A DNA stretch of 64,000 nucleotides, from NCBI RefSeq assembly GCF_009827055.1, contig NZ_WUMK01000009.1:186001-250000 (forward strand), read 5' to 3'. This document shows positions 3,244-60,133 of the stretch, piece after piece. Source of the stretch: Shinella kummerowiae (lineage in GTDB: Bacteria > Pseudomonadota > Alphaproteobacteria > Rhizobiales > Rhizobiaceae). Numbering within the stretch: the first letter of the stretch is position 1; every line of letters starts with the position of its first letter. A model generated the notes under the pieces. That model did not search any database. It saw nothing but the letters and a program-made list of their open reading frames with translations, and was not told where the DNA came from. Position numbers and translations under genes: made by a program.

Positions 3244-4347
3244 TCACGCCTCAATCGACACGTCGCCGATCGGCCGCGAGCAGCAGGCGAGGATGTAGCC
3301 CTCCTCGATCTCGTCGTCGAGGATGCCGCCATTGTGGCGCATGTCCACCTCTCCCGAGACCTTCATGACGCGGCAGGTGCCGCACAGGCCGCCCTCGCAG
3401 GCCGCGCCGATGCGCACGCCCGCGGCACGCGCCGTCTGCAGGATCGTCTGGCCGGGCGGGCATTTGCTTTCCTTGCCGGCCATGGTGAAGGAGATGGTGG
3501 CCACCGCATTGGCGTCGACCTCGATCTCGCCGGCGCCGGCCCGAATGGCGATCTCCTCCGGCGCGGGCGCTGCGGCCGGCTGGAAGCTTTCCTCATGGTA
3601 GCGGTCCATGTTGAAGCCGCAGACCTTGAGCATGTCCCTGACGCCGCGCATGAACGGTTCCGGGCCGCAGCAGAAGACGGTGCGGTCGCGGAAGTCGGGC
3701 GAGAGCAATGACAGGCGGGCGGCGTCGATGCGGCCGCGCAGGCCATGCCAGCCGTCGCGCGGATTGTGGCCCTCGACGACGAAGCCGAGCGCCAGGTTCG
3801 GCATGTGGGCCGCCAGACATTCGAGTTCGGCCTTGAAGAGCAGGTCGTCGGGCCTGCGGGCACAGGTGACGAAGGCGACATCCGACTGCGGCGCGCAGTC
3901 CGACATCCAGCGGGTCATCGACATCATCGGCGTGACGCCGGAACCGGCCGAGATGAAGAGGTACTTTTCCGCAGGATAGCGCACGAAGGAGAAGTCGCCG
4001 AGCGGGCCGAAGGCCTTCAGCGTCATGCCCGGCTTCAGATGGTCAAACATCCAGCGCGTGCCGATCGAATTCTTCTGCGCCTTCACCGTCACGGCGACGG
4101 TGAAGGGACGCGAAGGCGTCGAGGACAGCGTGTAGGTACGCATCACAGGCTCGTCTTCGGAGACCGGCAGTTCCAGCGTGACGAACTGGCCCGGCAGGTA
4201 GCGGAACCAGTTGTCGCGATCCGAGCGGAAGGTGAAGGTCATCACATCCGTCGTCTCGACGGTGGCGGCGACACATTCCAGCAGATTGTGGCGGTCGTGC
4301 CAGGGATTGAGTTCGTCGAAATGGCGGAAATGGCTGGCGATCGTCAT
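3244..4347 (-). CDS. Ferredoxin-type reductase of a Rieske oxygenase (GbcB-like)
   Basis: 367 residues with three domains: a flavin-binding reductase domain with RTYTLSSTP (about 70-80), an NAD-binding domain with GSGVTPMMS (about 135-145), and a C-terminal plant-type [2Fe-2S] ferredoxin domain with CEGGLCGTC and a later CC. It should take electrons from NADH through flavin and the cluster and deliver them to the Rieske oxygenase encoded just upstream. That gene's TGA and this ATG are separated by one base (TGACATG), so the two are surely co-translated. Size and architecture fit GbcB, the glycine betaine demethylase reductase; stachydrine or carnitine monooxygenase reductases are close alternatives. 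The pair lies behind a cobalamin riboswitch. A longer in-frame start at 4395 would overlap the oxygenase gene and is less likely. Confidence 0.9.
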   Translation of the reverse strand: MTIASHFRHFDELNPWHDRHNLLECVAATVETTDVMTFTFRSDRDNWFRYLPGQFVTLELPVSEDEPVMRTYTLSSTPSRPFTVAVTVKAQKNSIGTRWMFDHLKPGMTLKAFGPLGDFSFVRYPAEKYLFISAGSGVTPMMSMTRWMSDCAPQSDVAFVTCARRPDDLLFKAELECLAAHMPNLALGFVVEGHNPRDGWHGLRGRIDAARLSLLSPDFRDRTVFCCGPEPFMRGVRDMLKVCGFNMDRYHEESFQPAAAPAPEEIAIRAGAGEIEVDANAVATISFTMAGKESKCPPGQTILQTARAAGVRIGAACEGGLCGTCRVMKVSGEVDMRHNGGILDDEIEEGYILACCSRPIGDVSIEA

Positions 4348-4348
4348 G

Positions 4349-5593
4349 TCAGGCCACCCGCGACAGCGGCCGCTTGGCGCCGTCGAGCCGTTCAATCATG
4401 AAATTGGCGTACCATTCGACGAACTGCATGACGCCGCCTTCGTCCTCCGGGGAATAGGGTCCAGGCTGGTAGGCCGGCGAGCGGATGCCGAAGGCGTTTT
4501 CCTCGACGATCCGGCGGTCCTGGTCGTTGGTCTCGGTCCAGACATGGGTGAGTTCGTCGAGACGATAATCGACGCCTTCCACCGCATCCTTGTTGACGAG
4601 CCATTTGGTGGTGACCTGCGTCAGTTCCGGGCCGAGCGGCAGCACGCGGAAGGTGATGGCGTGGTCGGCCAACACATGGTTCCACGTCGTCGGGTAGTGG
4701 AAGAGCAGCAGCGTGCCAATCCGGCTTTCCAGCACGTCGCTGGACAGCGGGCGGGCGACGGCGCGCGCGCCCGACATGGTGTAGCTCTCGGCATCCTGGA
4801 TCAGCGGCATGCGGGCGGCGCGGAACTGACCGGTCGGCGACATGCGGAATTCGCTCGGCAGGCCAGCGGCCTCGCATTTGGCCCAGTGTTCGGCAATCAC
4901 CGGATCGTCCTTGGCGCCCTGCACGCCGGTGGCGCTCGGCGCTTCCGGATAGGTGCGGCAGAGTTCCGGGTGGTTGGCGGCACAGTGATAGCACTCGCGG
5001 TTGTTTTCCCAGACGAGCTTCCAGTTGCCCTTCTCGATGATCGTGCTTTCGAAGGCAACCTTGGTTTCACCAAGGCGGTGACGGGTGAGATAGGGTTCGA
5101 CCAGGGCGCGGAACGGCGCAAAATCAGGCGCTTCGTCGGCAAGGCAGACGAAGATGTAGCCGCCGACGGTCTCGCAATGCATACGCTTCAGGCTGTGCTG
5201 CGTCCTGTCGAAATCCTCCGCCATGTGGCGCGCGAAGAGCAGCGAGCCGTCGAGTTCGTAGGTCCACTGGTGATAGGGACAGACGAGCTTGGCCGACGAG
5301 CCCTTGTGCTGGGTGCAGACGCGCGAGCCGCGATGGCGGCAGGAATTGTGCAGCGCGCGCACCGTTCCGGAGCGGTCGCGGGTGATGACGACGGGATAGT
5401 CGCCGACCTGCACGGTGAAATAGTTGCCGGCCTTGGGGATCTCGCAGTCGTGGCCGATGAACAGCCAGTCGCGGTACCAGATCGTCTCCAGGTCGAGCTT
5501 GTAGTGATCGGGGTCGATGTAGAAGGCCTGCTCGAGGCTGTAGCCGTCGCGCCGGTTCTTGAGCTTGCGGAGCACGTCGCTGCGAATGTCCAT
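4349..5593 (-). CDS. Rieske non-heme iron oxygenase, glycine betaine/stachydrine demethylase type (GbcA-like)
   Basis: 414 residues. The Rieske cluster ligands are C85-x-H87 (SCRHRG) and C105-x2-H108 (CPYHQW); the mononuclear iron site is in NRECYHCAANHPEL (H203 and H208) with a carboxylate expected near residue 355. This C-Y-H-C-A-x-N-H form is typical of the GbcA/Stc2 group, which removes N-methyl groups from quaternary ammonium compounds as formaldehyde using O2 and NADH. It forms an operon with the reductase downstream. The leader carries a B12 riboswitch, so expression should fall when cobalamin is plentiful; that is unexpected for an enzyme without a corrinoid and suggests a B12-independent stand-in for a corrinoid pathway. 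The exact substrate is not proven. Confidence 0.88.
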   Translation of the reverse strand: MDIRSDVLRKLKNRRDGYSLEQAFYIDPDHYKLDLETIWYRDWLFIGHDCEIPKAGNYFTVQVGDYPVVITRDRSGTVRALHNSCRHRGSRVCTQHKGSSAKLVCPYHQWTYELDGSLLFARHMAEDFDRTQHSLKRMHCETVGGYIFVCLADEAPDFAPFRALVEPYLTRHRLGETKVAFESTIIEKGNWKLVWENNRECYHCAANHPELCRTYPEAPSATGVQGAKDDPVIAEHWAKCEAAGLPSEFRMSPTGQFRAARMPLIQDAESYTMSGARAVARPLSSDVLESRIGTLLLFHYPTTWNHVLADHAITFRVLPLGPELTQVTTKWLVNKDAVEGVDYRLDELTHVWTETNDQDRRIVEENAFGIRSPAYQPGPYSPEDEGGVMQFVEWYANFMIERLDGAKRPLSRVA

Positions 5594-5652
5594 GCCGGAT
5601 CCTCAGAATATCCAGGTTTTGAAGACCGAGGCGCACGGAAGGAGACGGCATC

Positions 5653-5694
5653 CGGGCGGCAAGCCGCACGAATTGCACGCTTCCCGGCCGCCCG
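5653..5694 (-). promoter_or_regulatory. GC-rich hairpin between B12 aptamer and oxygenase gene (possible expression platform)
   Basis: Eight-base arms CGGGCGGC and GCCGCCCG, with a further AAGC/GCTT pairing inside, form a strong stem between the aptamer and the ATG at 5593. There is no U-tract after it on the minus strand, so it is not a classical intrinsic terminator; it could act through translation or Rho. Confidence 0.4.
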
Positions 5695-5718
5695 CCGCAG
5701 CCAGTCACGATCGTTTCT

Positions 5719-5885
5719 CCAGGCTGGTTTCCGGGCTGAGGAATGTCCCGAAGGACCGGTGCAGCGCCTTCCCAGACCTCCCGTCCAGTGGCTTCTGCTG
5801 CACCTTGTTCCAACACCGTTGCGGGGGCAGCGCCGGATTTCAACCGGCTTCCCAATTCTCCACCCTCCCTGAGAAGTGGCACCTT
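5719..5885 (-). ncRNA. Cobalamin (adenosylcobalamin-type) riboswitch
   Basis: Read on the minus strand, the conserved parts of the B12 element appear in order: GGTGCCAC (5883-5876), a core with GGGAAGCCGGT then AAATCCGGCGCTGCC and CCCGCAACGG (5853-5815), the B12 box AAGCCACTGG (around 5794-5785), and the closing AGCCCGGAAACC (around 5738-5727). This is a nearly complete match to the aptamer. It lies about 125 bases ahead of the Rieske oxygenase gene and reads toward it. In proteobacteria this element lowers expression of downstream genes when cobalamin is bound. Usual targets are B12 synthesis, transport or B12-independent isozymes such as metE; a Rieske oxygenase/reductase operon is an unusual target. 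Confidence 0.95.
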
Positions 5886-5892
5886 GAGTGTG

Positions 5893-6185
5893 CTTATCTA
5901 AGCGCAAGAATCGGCGCACAACATGTCGAAAAACGACACGGCCTCCTGATTTGACGACAGCGTATTCCAGAAGGAACGAGGTGCACCGATCCGGCTTTTT
6001 CCAGTCATACCAAAGCGATATGCCCAATTTTTCGGCGGATTGCCCTGCCCGCAGCAACGCCGGGGTCACGCATTATGCGCTTGTCATATTGCGACCATGA
6101 TATCGGCGAGACAGGAATTGGGAGTGCGTCAGCAAGGATTGCTTAACGACGTTTTCTTACTCTTGTGTGCGATCAGGGCGCGAGG
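5893..6185. other. Divergent intergenic region upstream of riboswitch and of a conserved unknown gene
   Basis: About 290 bases with no convincing gene. It must hold the promoter for the riboswitch transcript (minus) and that for the gene at 6186 (plus). A short perfect palindrome, TGTCG-AAAAA-CGACA, is at 5924-5938. A partial stress-promoter match (GGAAC at 5973, but GCTT in place of CGTT) was not accepted. Confidence 0.5.
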
Positions 6186-6806
6186 ATGGAGTGCCGCCAC
6201 GTGCAGCAGACGAAATTTCGATATTACGACGCCGTAGCCTACAAGCGCGCCAACCCGCCGAAAGCAGCCATCCACACTCAGTTCCTGCGGACCGGCCGTA
6301 TCGACCGTGACGTCAGCTGGAGCCCGAGCGAGAAGCGCTACCTCTCCTATCAGGAAGTGGCCGAGCGCACCGGCCGCAAGCTGGAGCGGGCGGGCAATGT
6401 CACCCACGACCGCATCAACGGCTTTCATGAGACGATCCAGTTTCCCAAGCTGATCTTTCACCGCACGCTCGCCCAAACGCCGCATCTCGGCTACTGCCAC
6501 ATCACGGTGGCCAATTCCCGTTTCGCGGAATTCCCGAACGTGCAATGGGCTTTCTACATGACGAACTTCCTTGCCGAGATCGGCGACGAAGACCAGTTCT
6601 TTGCCGGCATTTCGAAGAAGCCGGGCCGGATGTATTTCGCCATCGCGATCACCCCGACGGAAGAGGAAGGCCGCCTCACCATCGACCGCAAGGTGCGCGG
6701 CAACGGCGTGATCTTCCGCACCGACGACCCGAAGCTCGCCATGAAGAATGTGCTGATGCTCGGCGCCCGCAACGAGGCACTGCGCAAGGTCATCCGCGCG
6801 ATTTAG
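6186..6806 (+). CDS. Conserved protein of unknown function (rhizobial type)
   Basis: About 206 residues, soluble, with no signal peptide or membrane segment. It contains the motifs FRYYDAVAYKRA near the start, YCHITVANSRFAEFPNVQ in the middle and GNGVIFRTDDP near the end. I do not recognise a characterised domain; from memory it resembles a rhizobial domain of unknown function (perhaps DUF6656), which is unverified. The ATG at 6186 is preceded only by GCGAGG directly against it; a GTG at 6165 in the same frame is the alternative and has no better site, so the start is uncertain. It converges with the GGDEF-like gene and the stops overlap by four bases. Confidence 0.7.
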   Translation: MECRHVQQTKFRYYDAVAYKRANPPKAAIHTQFLRTGRIDRDVSWSPSEKRYLSYQEVAERTGRKLERAGNVTHDRINGFHETIQFPKLIFHRTLAQTPHLGYCHITVANSRFAEFPNVQWAFYMTNFLAEIGDEDQFFAGISKKPGRMYFAIAITPTEEEGRLTIDRKVRGNGVIFRTDDPKLAMKNVLMLGARNEALRKVIRAI

Positions 6807-58503: not shown

Positions 58504-60045
58504 TCAGTACCAGGCGTCGGCCATCGCGGCCTTCCGGCGGTTCATATGATCGCAAAGCGCCTCGTCGATGGCGGCATCCAGCGGGGGCGCTTCGTACTCG
58601 GCAAGCGTCTTTTTCCATTGGCGGTTGGCGCGCGTTGCCATGTCGGTCGAACCGCCCTCCTCGCTCCATTTCTCGAAGGGTTCGTTGTCGGAGAGCGTCG
58701 CATCCCAGAAGGCCGTCTGGTAATTGCGCATCGTGTGGTCGCAGCCGAGGAAATGGCTGCCGGGACCAACCTGCAGGAAGGCATCCATTGCAAGCGTGTT
58801 GTCGTCGACGACGACGCCGGCGAGATAGGAATGCAGCGCGCCGCACAGGTCCGCATCCATCACGAACTTTTCGTAGGACATGGCAAGCAGGCCATCGAGG
58901 AAACCGGCGGAATGCAGGATGAAGTTCGCGCCGCAATGCACGGCCGACAGCATCGACATCAGCCCTTCCTGCATGGCCTGCCCGTCCGGCAGCTTGGAGT
59001 TCGAAAAATTGCCGGCGCAACGCAGCGGCAGCTTGAGGCGGCGGGCGAGCTGGCCGACGACCATGGAGCCGATGGCCGGCTCCGGCGTGCCGAAGGTCGG
59101 CGAGCCGGAGCGCAGCGACATGGAGGAGAGGAAGTTGCCGAAGATGACCGGCGCACCCTTGCGCTCGAGCTGGGTCAGCGCACAGCCGGCGAGCGTTTCG
59201 GCAAAGGACTGCGCGATGGCGCCGGCATTGGTGACCGGGCCCATGGCGCCGCCGAGGATGAAGGGCACGATGACGGCGGCCTGGTTGGCGCGGGCATAGG
59301 CGCGCAGCGACTTCGTCATGGTGCCGTCCCAGACGAGCGGCGAGTTGACGTTGACATTGCCGAGGATGACGCAGTTTTGGTCGACGAAGTCGGCACCGAA
59401 CAGGATGCGCGCCATGTCGATGGAATCCTCGGCGCGCTCCTCCGCCGTGATCGAGCCCATGAAGGGGCGATCGGAATATTTGATATGGCTGTAGACCATG
59501 TCGAGATGGCGCTTGTTCACCGGGATATCGACCGGCTCGCAGATCGTGCCGCCGGAATGGTGCAGCCAAGGGCTCGACTGGGCGAGCTTGATGAAGTTGC
59601 GAAAATCCTCCAGCGTGCCGTAGCGCCGGCCCTTGTCCAGATCCATCACGAAGGGCGAACCATAGGCGGGCGAGAAGACCACCTTGTTGCCGCCGATCTG
59701 CACGTTGTTGGCAGGATTGCGGGCATATTGGGTGAATTCGGCGGGCGCGGAGGAGACGATCTCGCGCAGCATGCCCGGCTCGAAACGGACCAGCACGCCA
59801 TCGACCTTCGCACCGGCGCGCTTCCAGTGCTCGATTGTCGCCGGGTCGTCGCGAAACTCGATGCCGACTTCGGCGAGGATGCGATCCGCCACCCGCTCGA
59901 TCTTCTGCAGGTTCTCTTCCGACAGCACGTCATAGGTCGGGATGCCGCGCACGATATAGGGCACGCCGAGCGGCTTTGCCGTATTGTCCCGTCGGGTGCC
60001 TCTGCTGCGCCGTACCGGCGCCTCGATCGTCGCTGCCTCGGCCAT
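58504..60045 (-). CDS. MttB superfamily (corrinoid-linked) methyltransferase, non-pyrrolysine type
   Basis: 513 residues in the MttB (trimethylamine methyltransferase) superfamily: YDVLSEENLQKIERVADRIL near the start, VFSPAYGSPFVMD, GSPTFGTPEP, and LPDGQAMQEG in the C-terminal half. The frame has no internal amber codon, so it is the non-pyrrolysine branch, whose known members demethylate glycine betaine and related compounds with a corrinoid protein. No corrinoid protein or its activator lies next to it, so it must use partners elsewhere. It is divergent from a LysR gene. ATG at 60045 has GGAGGAATG upstream. Confidence 0.9.
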   Translation of the reverse strand: MAEAATIEAPVRRSRGTRRDNTAKPLGVPYIVRGIPTYDVLSEENLQKIERVADRILAEVGIEFRDDPATIEHWKRAGAKVDGVLVRFEPGMLREIVSSAPAEFTQYARNPANNVQIGGNKVVFSPAYGSPFVMDLDKGRRYGTLEDFRNFIKLAQSSPWLHHSGGTICEPVDIPVNKRHLDMVYSHIKYSDRPFMGSITAEERAEDSIDMARILFGADFVDQNCVILGNVNVNSPLVWDGTMTKSLRAYARANQAAVIVPFILGGAMGPVTNAGAIAQSFAETLAGCALTQLERKGAPVIFGNFLSSMSLRSGSPTFGTPEPAIGSMVVGQLARRLKLPLRCAGNFSNSKLPDGQAMQEGLMSMLSAVHCGANFILHSAGFLDGLLAMSYEKFVMDADLCGALHSYLAGVVVDDNTLAMDAFLQVGPGSHFLGCDHTMRNYQTAFWDATLSDNEPFEKWSEEGGSTDMATRANRQWKKTLAEYEAPPLDAAIDEALCDHMNRRKAAMADAWY

Positions 60046-60133
60046 GCATTCCTCCATAATTTGACAGGAGGCTAGGCGCGAAAAAGCCGGTTGTAACGCT
60101 GGAAAAATCTATTCGACACTATAAGCTGAGTTT

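Follow-up and report, generated by a model that had tools for sequence, protein, structure and literature searches.

A cobalamin (B12) riboswitch in front of a two-gene operon for a Rieske oxygenase and its reductase raises the question of why B12 might govern an O2-dependent enzyme. This arrangement had been proposed in a sequence-only reading of a 64-kb stretch of Shinella kummerowiae DNA (here called the window). We searched the whole window against Rfam (gathering score, 31.5 bits) and found a sole match, a complete cobalamin aptamer (RF00174; 103.6 bits; E 7.5e-25; model positions 1 to 189 of 189) at positions 5705 to 5901 of the minus strand, with the oxygenase gene downstream across a gap of 111 nt. 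The full-length match in the region that the reading had singled out (5700 to 5900, minus strand) bears out the aptamer, and all of the conserved pieces recognized earlier lie within it; the location stood, but the outer limit had been drawn at 5885, 16 nt short of 5901. The riboswitch precedes the oxygenase gene in each of the 21 genomes searched within the genus, our own genome counted, a pairing that exceeds chance.

The oxygenase gene (4349 to 5593, minus strand) encodes a 414-amino-acid protein with Rieske and Ring_hydroxyl_A domains, and its neighbor (3244 to 4347, minus strand) encodes a 367-amino-acid ferredoxin-NAD(P)H reductase with FAD, NAD, and 2Fe-2S domains (Pfam in both cases); translation of the called reductase gene most likely begins at the ATG at 4347, one base past the oxygenase stop codon, rather than at the TTG at 4395. 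The two proteins had been described as GbcA-like and GbcB-like. They do resemble the GbcAB glycine betaine monooxygenase of Pseudomonas and Chromohalobacter, likewise a two-component Rieske system with these domains and the same active-site motif, but both fall below the equivalog cut-offs (506.3 bits against 670 for GbcA model NF058607 and 375.7 bits against 500 for GbcB model NF058606). The oxygenase clusters with the alphaproteobacterial Stc2/3n0q clade (58.4 and 57.4% identity) and not with the 17 GbcA proteins that exceed the cut-off (46 to 49%). Its nearest solved structures are PDB 3n0q and 3vca (57 to 58% identity, identical motif), the second of which we take to be the Stc2 stachydrine demethylase; the window oxygenase lies in a clade sister to that of Stc2. 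The motif, NRECYHCAANH, recurs as NRECYHC...H in all 41 rows, GbcA and Stc2 included. With positions assigned by spacing, not by structure, it supplies an Asn at the position of CntA Tyr203, the bridging Glu, the Cys pair, and two His residues, as described in excerpts of PMC7948474. The Rieske and catalytic domains, with this motif at fixed spacing, place the protein among the group Vb quaternary-ammonium Rieske demethylases, and it probably strips methyl groups from betaine-like compounds.

The sequence-only reading had suggested that the cell uses the oxygenase when B12 is scarce and a corrinoid route otherwise, and it had noted an MttB-family gene in the window. That gene, for a methyltransferase, exists (58504 to 60057, minus strand; PF06253, 766.7 bits), but a cluster on another contig, C1, fits the role of corrinoid partner better: Pfam searches found MtgE-, MtgB-, MtgC-, and MtgD-type proteins there, together with MTHFR and a RACo-type activase. 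These protein types match the MtgBCDE glycine betaine demethylase/split methionine synthase described in the accessible text of PMC12478193, which we propose as the B12-dependent counterpart; MtgC may have a part in methionine synthesis as well. The MtgC model is the best NCBIfam match of the MtgC-type protein, at 214.9 bits against a cut-off of 370. Judged by protein type, then, the genome that encodes the oxygenase also appears to encode a corrinoid betaine-demethylase set (MtgB, MtgC, MtgD, and MtgE types plus activase). The window MttB gene, 53 kb from the operon and one of four MTTB genes in the genome, is a second paralogue distinct from the mtgB-type gene of the cluster; it is probably not the direct counterpart of the oxygenase, and we dropped it as a candidate. 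In eight relatives (G012, G096, G098, G111, G134, G137, G169, and G184), too, the oxygenase shares its contig with a second MTTB paralogue at a distance of ~50 to 65 kb, so the spacing in the window looks like old synteny.

According to the same excerpts of PMC12478193, glycine betaine demethylation by a corrinoid system in aerobic bacteria has been reported only recently, Ruegeria pomeroyi mtgC and mtgD mutants do not grow on glycine betaine, the Sinorhizobium meliloti MtgBCDE genes are colocalized with a cobalamin operon, and GbcAB is named as an alternative in other bacteria; the word "riboswitch" occurs in that paper only in a glycine-riboswitch reference. The earlier suspicion that the riboswitch-oxygenase association might already be known was probably right in part. 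A cobalamin riboswitch upstream of S. meliloti SMc00982, which is probably the orthologue of the window oxygenase, is listed as an Rfam hit and nothing more in the accessible parts of PMC2245857 and PMC2573895, and we found the riboswitch core motif before the oxygenase gene of Sinorhizobium medicae. No functional reading of the association turned up in the literature listings and accessible passages covered. Rodionov and colleagues reportedly list an oxygenase-ferredoxin pair in their 2003 B12 survey. The name "frdX" was set aside as unrelated, since it denotes an hcp partner in the available text of PMC545781.

If the oxygenase stands in for a B12-dependent route, its riboswitch might be expected to accompany that route across the family. 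Among the 58 family genomes with an oxygenase at ≥65% identity, 40 had both the riboswitch before the oxygenase and MtgC, 1 had the riboswitch alone, 1 had MtgC alone, and 16 had neither (Fisher p 3.5e-12). For these counts, presence of the riboswitch was taken from scans of upstream regions; the positions compiled for the relatives cover the best 150 matches. In a second, named set of 80 loci, a scan for the riboswitch core motif was positive in 55; an Rfam rescan covered all 25 negative loci and 2 positive ones, and the other 53 positives stand on the motif scan. Fifty loci were sent on and 49 genomes searched for MtgC, giving 30, 2, 1, and 16 in the same four classes. Merging the sets (58 plus 49, minus 3 duplicates) gave 104 rows, divided 70, 3, 2, and 29. 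The exceptions were G129, Rhizobium sp. Leaf371, and Mesorhizobium qingshengii (riboswitch without MtgC) and G136 and Ciceribacter lividus (MtgC without riboswitch). Of 151 family genomes, 110 carried MtgB and 110 carried MtgC, and of the 17 genomes without the oxygenase riboswitch, 16 had neither protein. Across the family, the riboswitch follows both MtgC and MtgB, its partner, and is kept, and lost, together with the corrinoid counterpart. Three more distant oxygenases, which cluster with Stc2, had no riboswitch in the upstream scans, although two of the three come from MtgC-bearing genomes.

Joint loss of the riboswitch and the mtg genes by chance in a small number of old lineages (Agrobacterium, Rhizobium leguminosarum-like species, Xaviernesmea, and others), with no functional tie between them, would also produce such a pattern. 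The losses are indeed clustered on the tree, and well supported branches yield just five independent pairs, for which a sign test typically gave 4 for, 0 against, and 1 without a difference (median p 0.125; underpowered). On the other side, the 16 double negatives of the 58-genome set come from 11 genera, and each trait changed 10 to 11 times on the oxygenase tree. A Pagel-type test on this gene tree (a quick tree with a flat root) favored dependent over independent evolution with 58 tips (LR 34.5, p 6e-7), with 61 tips after the three more distant oxygenases were added (LR 36.7, p 2e-7), and with the merged 104 rows (LR 34.8, p 5e-7). We consider chance loss improbable as an explanation. As to the order of loss, the 58-tip fit had the riboswitch lost fast once MtgC was gone, a pattern that the 104-tip fit did not show.

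The genes around the operon point in the same direction as the co-occurrence. In 6 of the 40 riboswitch-bearing genomes, and in 0 of the 17 without the riboswitch, the fetched flank shows nrdAB and/or metE or a MesX/core-MetE pair as neighbors of the operon, each with a riboswitch core of its own. B12-independent isozymes of this kind (metE, nrdAB/nrdEF/nrdDG) resemble the oxygenase operon in having a cobalamin riboswitch in front and a B12-dependent counterpart in the genome; excerpts of PMC545781 describe nrdDG under a B12 riboswitch and the principle of such control. Our own genome has five further B12 riboswitches, one of which precedes a class Ib nrdE operon, and an adenosylcobalamin-type NrdJ is encoded alongside. 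The proposal that the oxygenase works when B12 is scarce is therefore favored by comparison, both by the link to MtgC and MtgB and by these adjoining isozyme genes.

The sequence-only reading had offered, as a second possibility, that the oxygenase serves the synthesis or repair of corrinoids or their lower ligand, so that B12 would repress it like any biosynthetic gene. Many B12 riboswitches do govern biosynthesis or uptake (accessible text of PMC3766115), and the other four in our own genome precede bluB, a run that we read as cbtA and cob genes, an uptake operon, and a small open reading frame before metH, none of them an alternative enzyme. The neighborhood argues otherwise: no cob or bluB gene was recognized in nine flanks checked gene by gene, and the operon neighbors that were found are nrdAB, metE, and metH. 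bluB and the genes read as cob have their riboswitches elsewhere in the genome. Moreover, 90 of the 151 family genomes yielded no oxygenase match at E 1e-120, whereas 144 of the 151 contain B12 riboswitches of some kind, and the 17 genomes without the oxygenase riboswitch keep 1 to 5 others each. We regard a role in corrinoid synthesis as very improbable.

A rival that deserves more weight, although we still think it unlikely, is that the oxygenase has a different quaternary ammonium compound as its substrate (stachydrine, a carnitine derivative, or some other betaine of plants). On this view, B12 control would reflect a general role of the enzyme in feeding or sparing one-carbon and methionine metabolism rather than substitution for MtgB on a single substrate. 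Its place in the Stc2/3n0q clade, away from the 17 GbcA proteins, speaks for this, as does the presence of metH within the fetched flank in 7 of the 40 riboswitch-bearing genomes. Against it, the active-site motif puts the family in the betaine-demethylating group, and the riboswitch is tied to MtgB and MtgC, the proteins that the survey covered; a link confined to MetH would give no reason to expect their absence from nearly all of the riboswitch-less genomes.

How the leader might act was approached through its expression platform. Directly after the aptamer lies a conserved hairpin with a 6-bp stem and the loop GGCGG (5686 to 5702, minus strand, as read from the sequence), which is a probable part of that platform. 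At the site of best pairing within the first 80 nt, at least five of the six pairs could form in 105 of 109 distinct platforms, and pair 2 covaries (A-U in 55, G-C in 47); a false motif match in a riboswitch-negative locus (L134) was removed before these counts and the folding. The probable Shine-Dalgarno sequence of the oxygenase gene, GAGGA (5600 to 5604, minus strand), is predicted to be mostly paired in the window sequence, and it is masked with or without forcing of the conserved hairpin. Across 105 platforms, forcing the hairpin reduced predicted Shine-Dalgarno accessibility in 25, increased it in 2, and left it little changed in 78, which is weak evidence. Complementarity to the Shine-Dalgarno sequence was somewhat higher in the platforms than in shuffled sequences (14.0 against 12.4), and 0 of 40 shuffled sets reached the higher value. 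A switch that masks the Shine-Dalgarno sequence is a possible mechanism.

We think it probable that the operon is a B12-sparing demethylation module, a backup to the corrinoid MtgB-MtgC-MtgD route. When adenosylcobalamin is plentiful, it would bind the leader and turn down translation (less likely transcription) of the oxygenase and reductase, and MtgB-MtgC-MtgD would take the methyl group from glycine betaine or a comparable quaternary ammonium compound. When B12 is short, the leader would open, and the O2-dependent oxygenase would demethylate instead, the methyl group leaving as formaldehyde and not as methyl-tetrahydrofolate. The direction of control (off with B12) is argued by analogy with the riboswitch class, and a substrate common to the oxygenase and the Mtg system is presumed. 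Retention of the riboswitch almost only in genomes that also have a B12-dependent betaine-demethylating system suggests a built-in backup for B12 shortage. Here the operon would differ from the metE and nrd isozymes: what is catalyzed is quaternary-ammonium demethylation, and its two alternative routes are not isofunctional in the strict sense, one consuming O2 and releasing formaldehyde and the other transferring the methyl group to tetrahydrofolate (excerpts of PMC12478193 and standard chemistry).

The strongest B12 riboswitch in the genome stands before metH, which would be an odd gene for B12 to repress. An open reading frame for an unnamed protein family of ~55 residues, here called X, comes first, and a palindrome, presumably resembling a SahR-like site, separates it from metH. 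With X directly after the riboswitch and the palindrome between the two genes, X is a likelier riboswitch target than metH, and all 30 fetched copies of X lie in B12-riboswitch operons; in some strains X comes after gbcB. As a tentative extension, which we hold with little confidence, separate riboswitches might form a rhizobial B12-shortage regulon that swaps methionine synthesis, ribonucleotide reduction, and betaine demethylation together, sometimes in one island (nrdAB, gbcAB, and metE), with X as their missing shared component, perhaps a small regulator or an adaptor tuning the corrinoid enzymes or the flow of one-carbon units under B12 shortage. X would offer a new entry point to B12 limitation.

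Were the backup reading true, betaine demethylation would be the third reaction among the few B12-dependent steps that have a bypass under riboswitch control, with a simple rule testable in laboratory strains of S. meliloti or Mesorhizobium. Speculatively, it may bear on the benefit of betaine feeding for B12 production reported in the accessible text of PMC8123684. Glycine betaine is abundant both as an osmolyte and as a nutrient; if B12 supply picks the route, then B12 status would determine the need for oxygen, the burden of formaldehyde, and the supply of methyl groups while betaine is being used.

The sequence-only reading had placed a cobalamin riboswitch ahead of an operon for a GbcA/GbcB-like Rieske oxygenase and reductase, and proposed that this O2-dependent enzyme backs up corrinoid betaine demethylation when B12 is scarce. 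The riboswitch was correctly recognized: an Rfam scan of the window gave a single match, a full-length cobalamin riboswitch on the minus strand at 5705-5901 (103.6 bits against a gathering threshold of 31.5; E = 7.5e-25). Downstream on the same strand, 4349-5593 encodes the oxygenase and is followed by a flavin/ferredoxin reductase gene that begins with an ATG at 4347, one base past the oxygenase stop; the next gene downstream encodes a phosphoesterase and is convergent. Just upstream of the operon, a divergent DUF6656 gene (PF20361) occupies 6186-6806 on the plus strand. Inspection by eye shows a comparable gene at this position in S. medicae (L057), R. aethiopicum (L066) and Agrobacterium (L070), and such neighbors occur at loci with and without the riboswitch.

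The enzyme names held in part: the oxygenase matched the GbcA model and the reductase the GbcB model, but both scored under the cut-offs (506 versus 670 bits and 376 versus 500 bits). The closest named oxygenase is from Shinella yambaruensis (94%), and the best solved relatives are 3n0q, 3vca (which we take to be Stc2) and 4qup. We made a quick tree of 41 rows, comprising 17 over-cut-off GbcA proteins, three other GbcA-like proteins, two PDB proteins and 19 of the 61 family members described below. The riboswitch-type oxygenases formed one clade, sister to the Stc2/3n0q clade (support for the two, 91 and 94) and apart from GbcA. All 41 rows carry the motif NRECYHC...H, which by spacing puts Asn at the CntA Tyr203 position and retains the bridging Glu together with the Cys pair and the two His residues. 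In PMC7948474, those active-site residues are given as the hallmark of the group Vb enzymes that demethylate glycine betaine and stachydrine. Tree position and motif place the window oxygenase, by family, among the quaternary-ammonium N-demethylases.

The proposed B12-dependent counterpart is encoded in the same genome. On contig C1, the 44-kb stretch with a riboswitch-preceded run read as cob genes also encodes four proteins of mtg types: an MtgE-type homocysteine-methyltransferase-domain protein, an MtgB-type MTTB protein, an MtgC-type B12-binding corrinoid protein and an MtgD-type pterin-binding protein. An MTHFR and a RACo-type activase are encoded there as well. The top NCBIfam match of the corrinoid protein is the glycine-betaine-specific MtgC model, at a score under the cut-off (214.9 versus 370). 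This gene set matches the MtgBCDE system of PMC12478193, where R. pomeroyi mtgC and mtgD mutants are reported not to grow on glycine betaine, the S. meliloti mtg genes are colocalized with the cobalamin operon, and metH and mtgBCD occur together mostly in Hyphomicrobiales, SAR324 and certain Alphaproteobacteria. A second MTTB paralogue lies in the window itself (58504-60057, minus strand). In eight relatives, an MTTB paralogue shares a contig with the oxygenase at a distance of ~50 to 65 kb, a similar spacing that suggests old synteny.

We searched relatives for the riboswitch ahead of gbcA-like genes, a check proposed in the sequence-only reading. Oxygenase family matches at E 1e-60 were present in 31 of 61 genomes (own included) and in 21/21 of the genus, and all 21 genus members have the riboswitch. 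In a family set of 151 genomes, each at least 95% complete, 61 had an oxygenase match at E 1e-120 (58 at ≥65% identity and three at 56 to 58%), and Rfam was run on the region upstream of each of these 61 genes. The riboswitch preceded 41 of the 58 and none of the three distant oxygenases, two of whose genomes have MtgC. Across the 151 genomes, MtgC and MtgB were each found in 110. Among the 58, riboswitch and MtgC occurred together in 40, the riboswitch alone in one (G129), MtgC alone in one (G136) and neither in 16 (Fisher p = 3.5e-12). On the oxygenase tree, a quick one with 19 of 58 inner branches weak, the riboswitch changed 10 times and MtgC 11 times, and dependent evolution fitted better than independent evolution (LR 34.5, p = 6e-7 for 58 tips; LR 36.7, p = 2e-7 for 61 tips). 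A conservative count of independent pairs typically gave four for, none against and one with no difference (median p = 0.125).

A set of named genomes, from which 50 of 80 loci were sent for MtgC and 49 searched, gave a similar division: both in 30, riboswitch only in two, MtgC only in one and neither in 16. These double negatives are Agrobacterium species, Xaviernesmea oryzae and various Rhizobium, including phaseoli, ruizarguesonis, lentis, aethiopicum, mongolense, nepotum, skierniewicense and a rhizogenes strain. Merging the sets (three of the 49 were already in the first) gave 104 rows, divided 70, 3, 2 and 29 in the same order (LR 34.8, p = 5e-7). The riboswitch is weak in two of the three riboswitch-only cases (L140, 61.3 bits; L052, 57.9 bits) and is possibly decaying there after loss of MtgC; but ones almost as weak occur in MtgC-bearing G102 (68.8 bits) and two genus members (64.8 bits), and the order of loss differs between the 58-tip and 104-tip fits. 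All 17 genomes without the oxygenase riboswitch keep one to five other B12 riboswitches, so B12 sensing as such was not lost.

The surroundings of the operon were examined by tblastn and with a riboswitch core motif in 40 of the 41 riboswitch-bearing genomes (the window's own left out) and in all 17 without, with flanks mostly of 8 kb per side, some shorter or clipped at contig ends. The operon adjoins nrdAB and/or metE in six (G163, G103, G077, G177, G079 and G154), a core-MetE with a MesX protein replacing metE in G103, and these neighboring genes have riboswitch cores of their own. The six were first spotted through another riboswitch nearby, which was why five of them were fetched; the count spans all 40. 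In G163, G103 and G079 (L212, L213 and L216), nrdAB, the gbcAB-like operon and metE or core-MetE-MesX form one island; neighbor proteins were identified with Pfam and NCBIfam on the L212 and L213 copies. metH lay within the flank in 7/40 riboswitch-bearing genomes, and tblastn found nrdAB, metE or metH in the flanks of none of the 17 without the riboswitch. Between nrdB and the gbcA riboswitch, L213 (8581-9363), L215 and L253 have a gene for a BtuF-like periplasmic-binding-domain protein (Peripla_BP_2), which in these three genomes apparently belongs to the riboswitch-controlled nrdAB operon.

The Shinella genome has six cobalamin riboswitches. Besides the oxygenase operon, they precede bluB (TIGR02476), a gene run read from translations as cbtA plus cob genes, an operon beginning with a periplasmic-binding-domain protein gene, a class Ib nrdE operon, in which nrdI and nrdF were assigned by reading, and a small open reading frame, X, ahead of metH. 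The genome also has a gene that passes the model threshold for NrdJ, the adenosylcobalamin-dependent reductase. In the region L007:5337-5934, the strongest riboswitch of the genome (131 bits) stands ahead of the B12-dependent metH, with X (71 amino acids; L007:5655-5867, equivalent to C40:197654-197866) in between; a 12-bp palindrome, AAAGATATCTTT, presumably SahR-like, also precedes metH. The X family has ~55 conserved residues with the core PEDxFxxWLLxLPxGADxxxAAxxEIxxID...LRxLL, and Pfam and NCBIfam gave no match beyond one chance-level Pfam one. X occurs in 31 of the 151 genomes (32 copies), and its relatives directly follow gbcB in many loci; behind the window's gbcB, no X was found. The 30 copies fetched (L007 and 29 among L273-L302) are all in B12-riboswitch operons: 13 directly after gbcB, 15 directly behind their own riboswitch by Rfam (nine of these with metH downstream of X) and two after nrdB, with a riboswitch 4.2 to 4.3 kb upstream. 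The remaining two fit, that of G069 lying behind a riboswitch among the matches listed and the second copy of G142 following gbcB.

That B12 represses the oxygenase operon would follow from the known class of riboswitch. Directly 3' of the aptamer, 108 of 109 distinct platforms have a hairpin with the loop GG[T/C/A]GG, and when the site that pairs best within the first 80 nt is taken, at least five of six pairs form in 105/109. The hairpin covaries, its second pair being A-U in 55 platforms and G-C in 47. Upstream complements of the Shine-Dalgarno (SD) region were somewhat stronger than in shuffles (14.0 versus 12.4; 0/40 shuffled sets as high). With the hairpin forced, the SD was predicted to be less accessible in 25 of the 105 cases, more accessible in two and little changed in 78. 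In Mesorhizobium-type leaders, we saw by eye candidate mutually exclusive pairings among the hairpin, the SD and a strand reading CCACC...CAGTCCT. On modest evidence, control would most likely be by translational repression.

A cobalamin riboswitch preceding S. meliloti SMc00982 is on record in PMC2245857 and PMC2573895, and this is probably the locus equivalent to that of the window; in the literature searched, we found no functional reading of the association. Three lines of comparative evidence, namely, co-occurrence, neighborhood and a proposed counterpart encoded by the genome itself, back the proposal that the oxygenase operon may act as a stand-in for the B12-dependent route. Riboswitch-controlled bypass of a B12-dependent step is of a kind already known, and the oxygenase operon would add a case.
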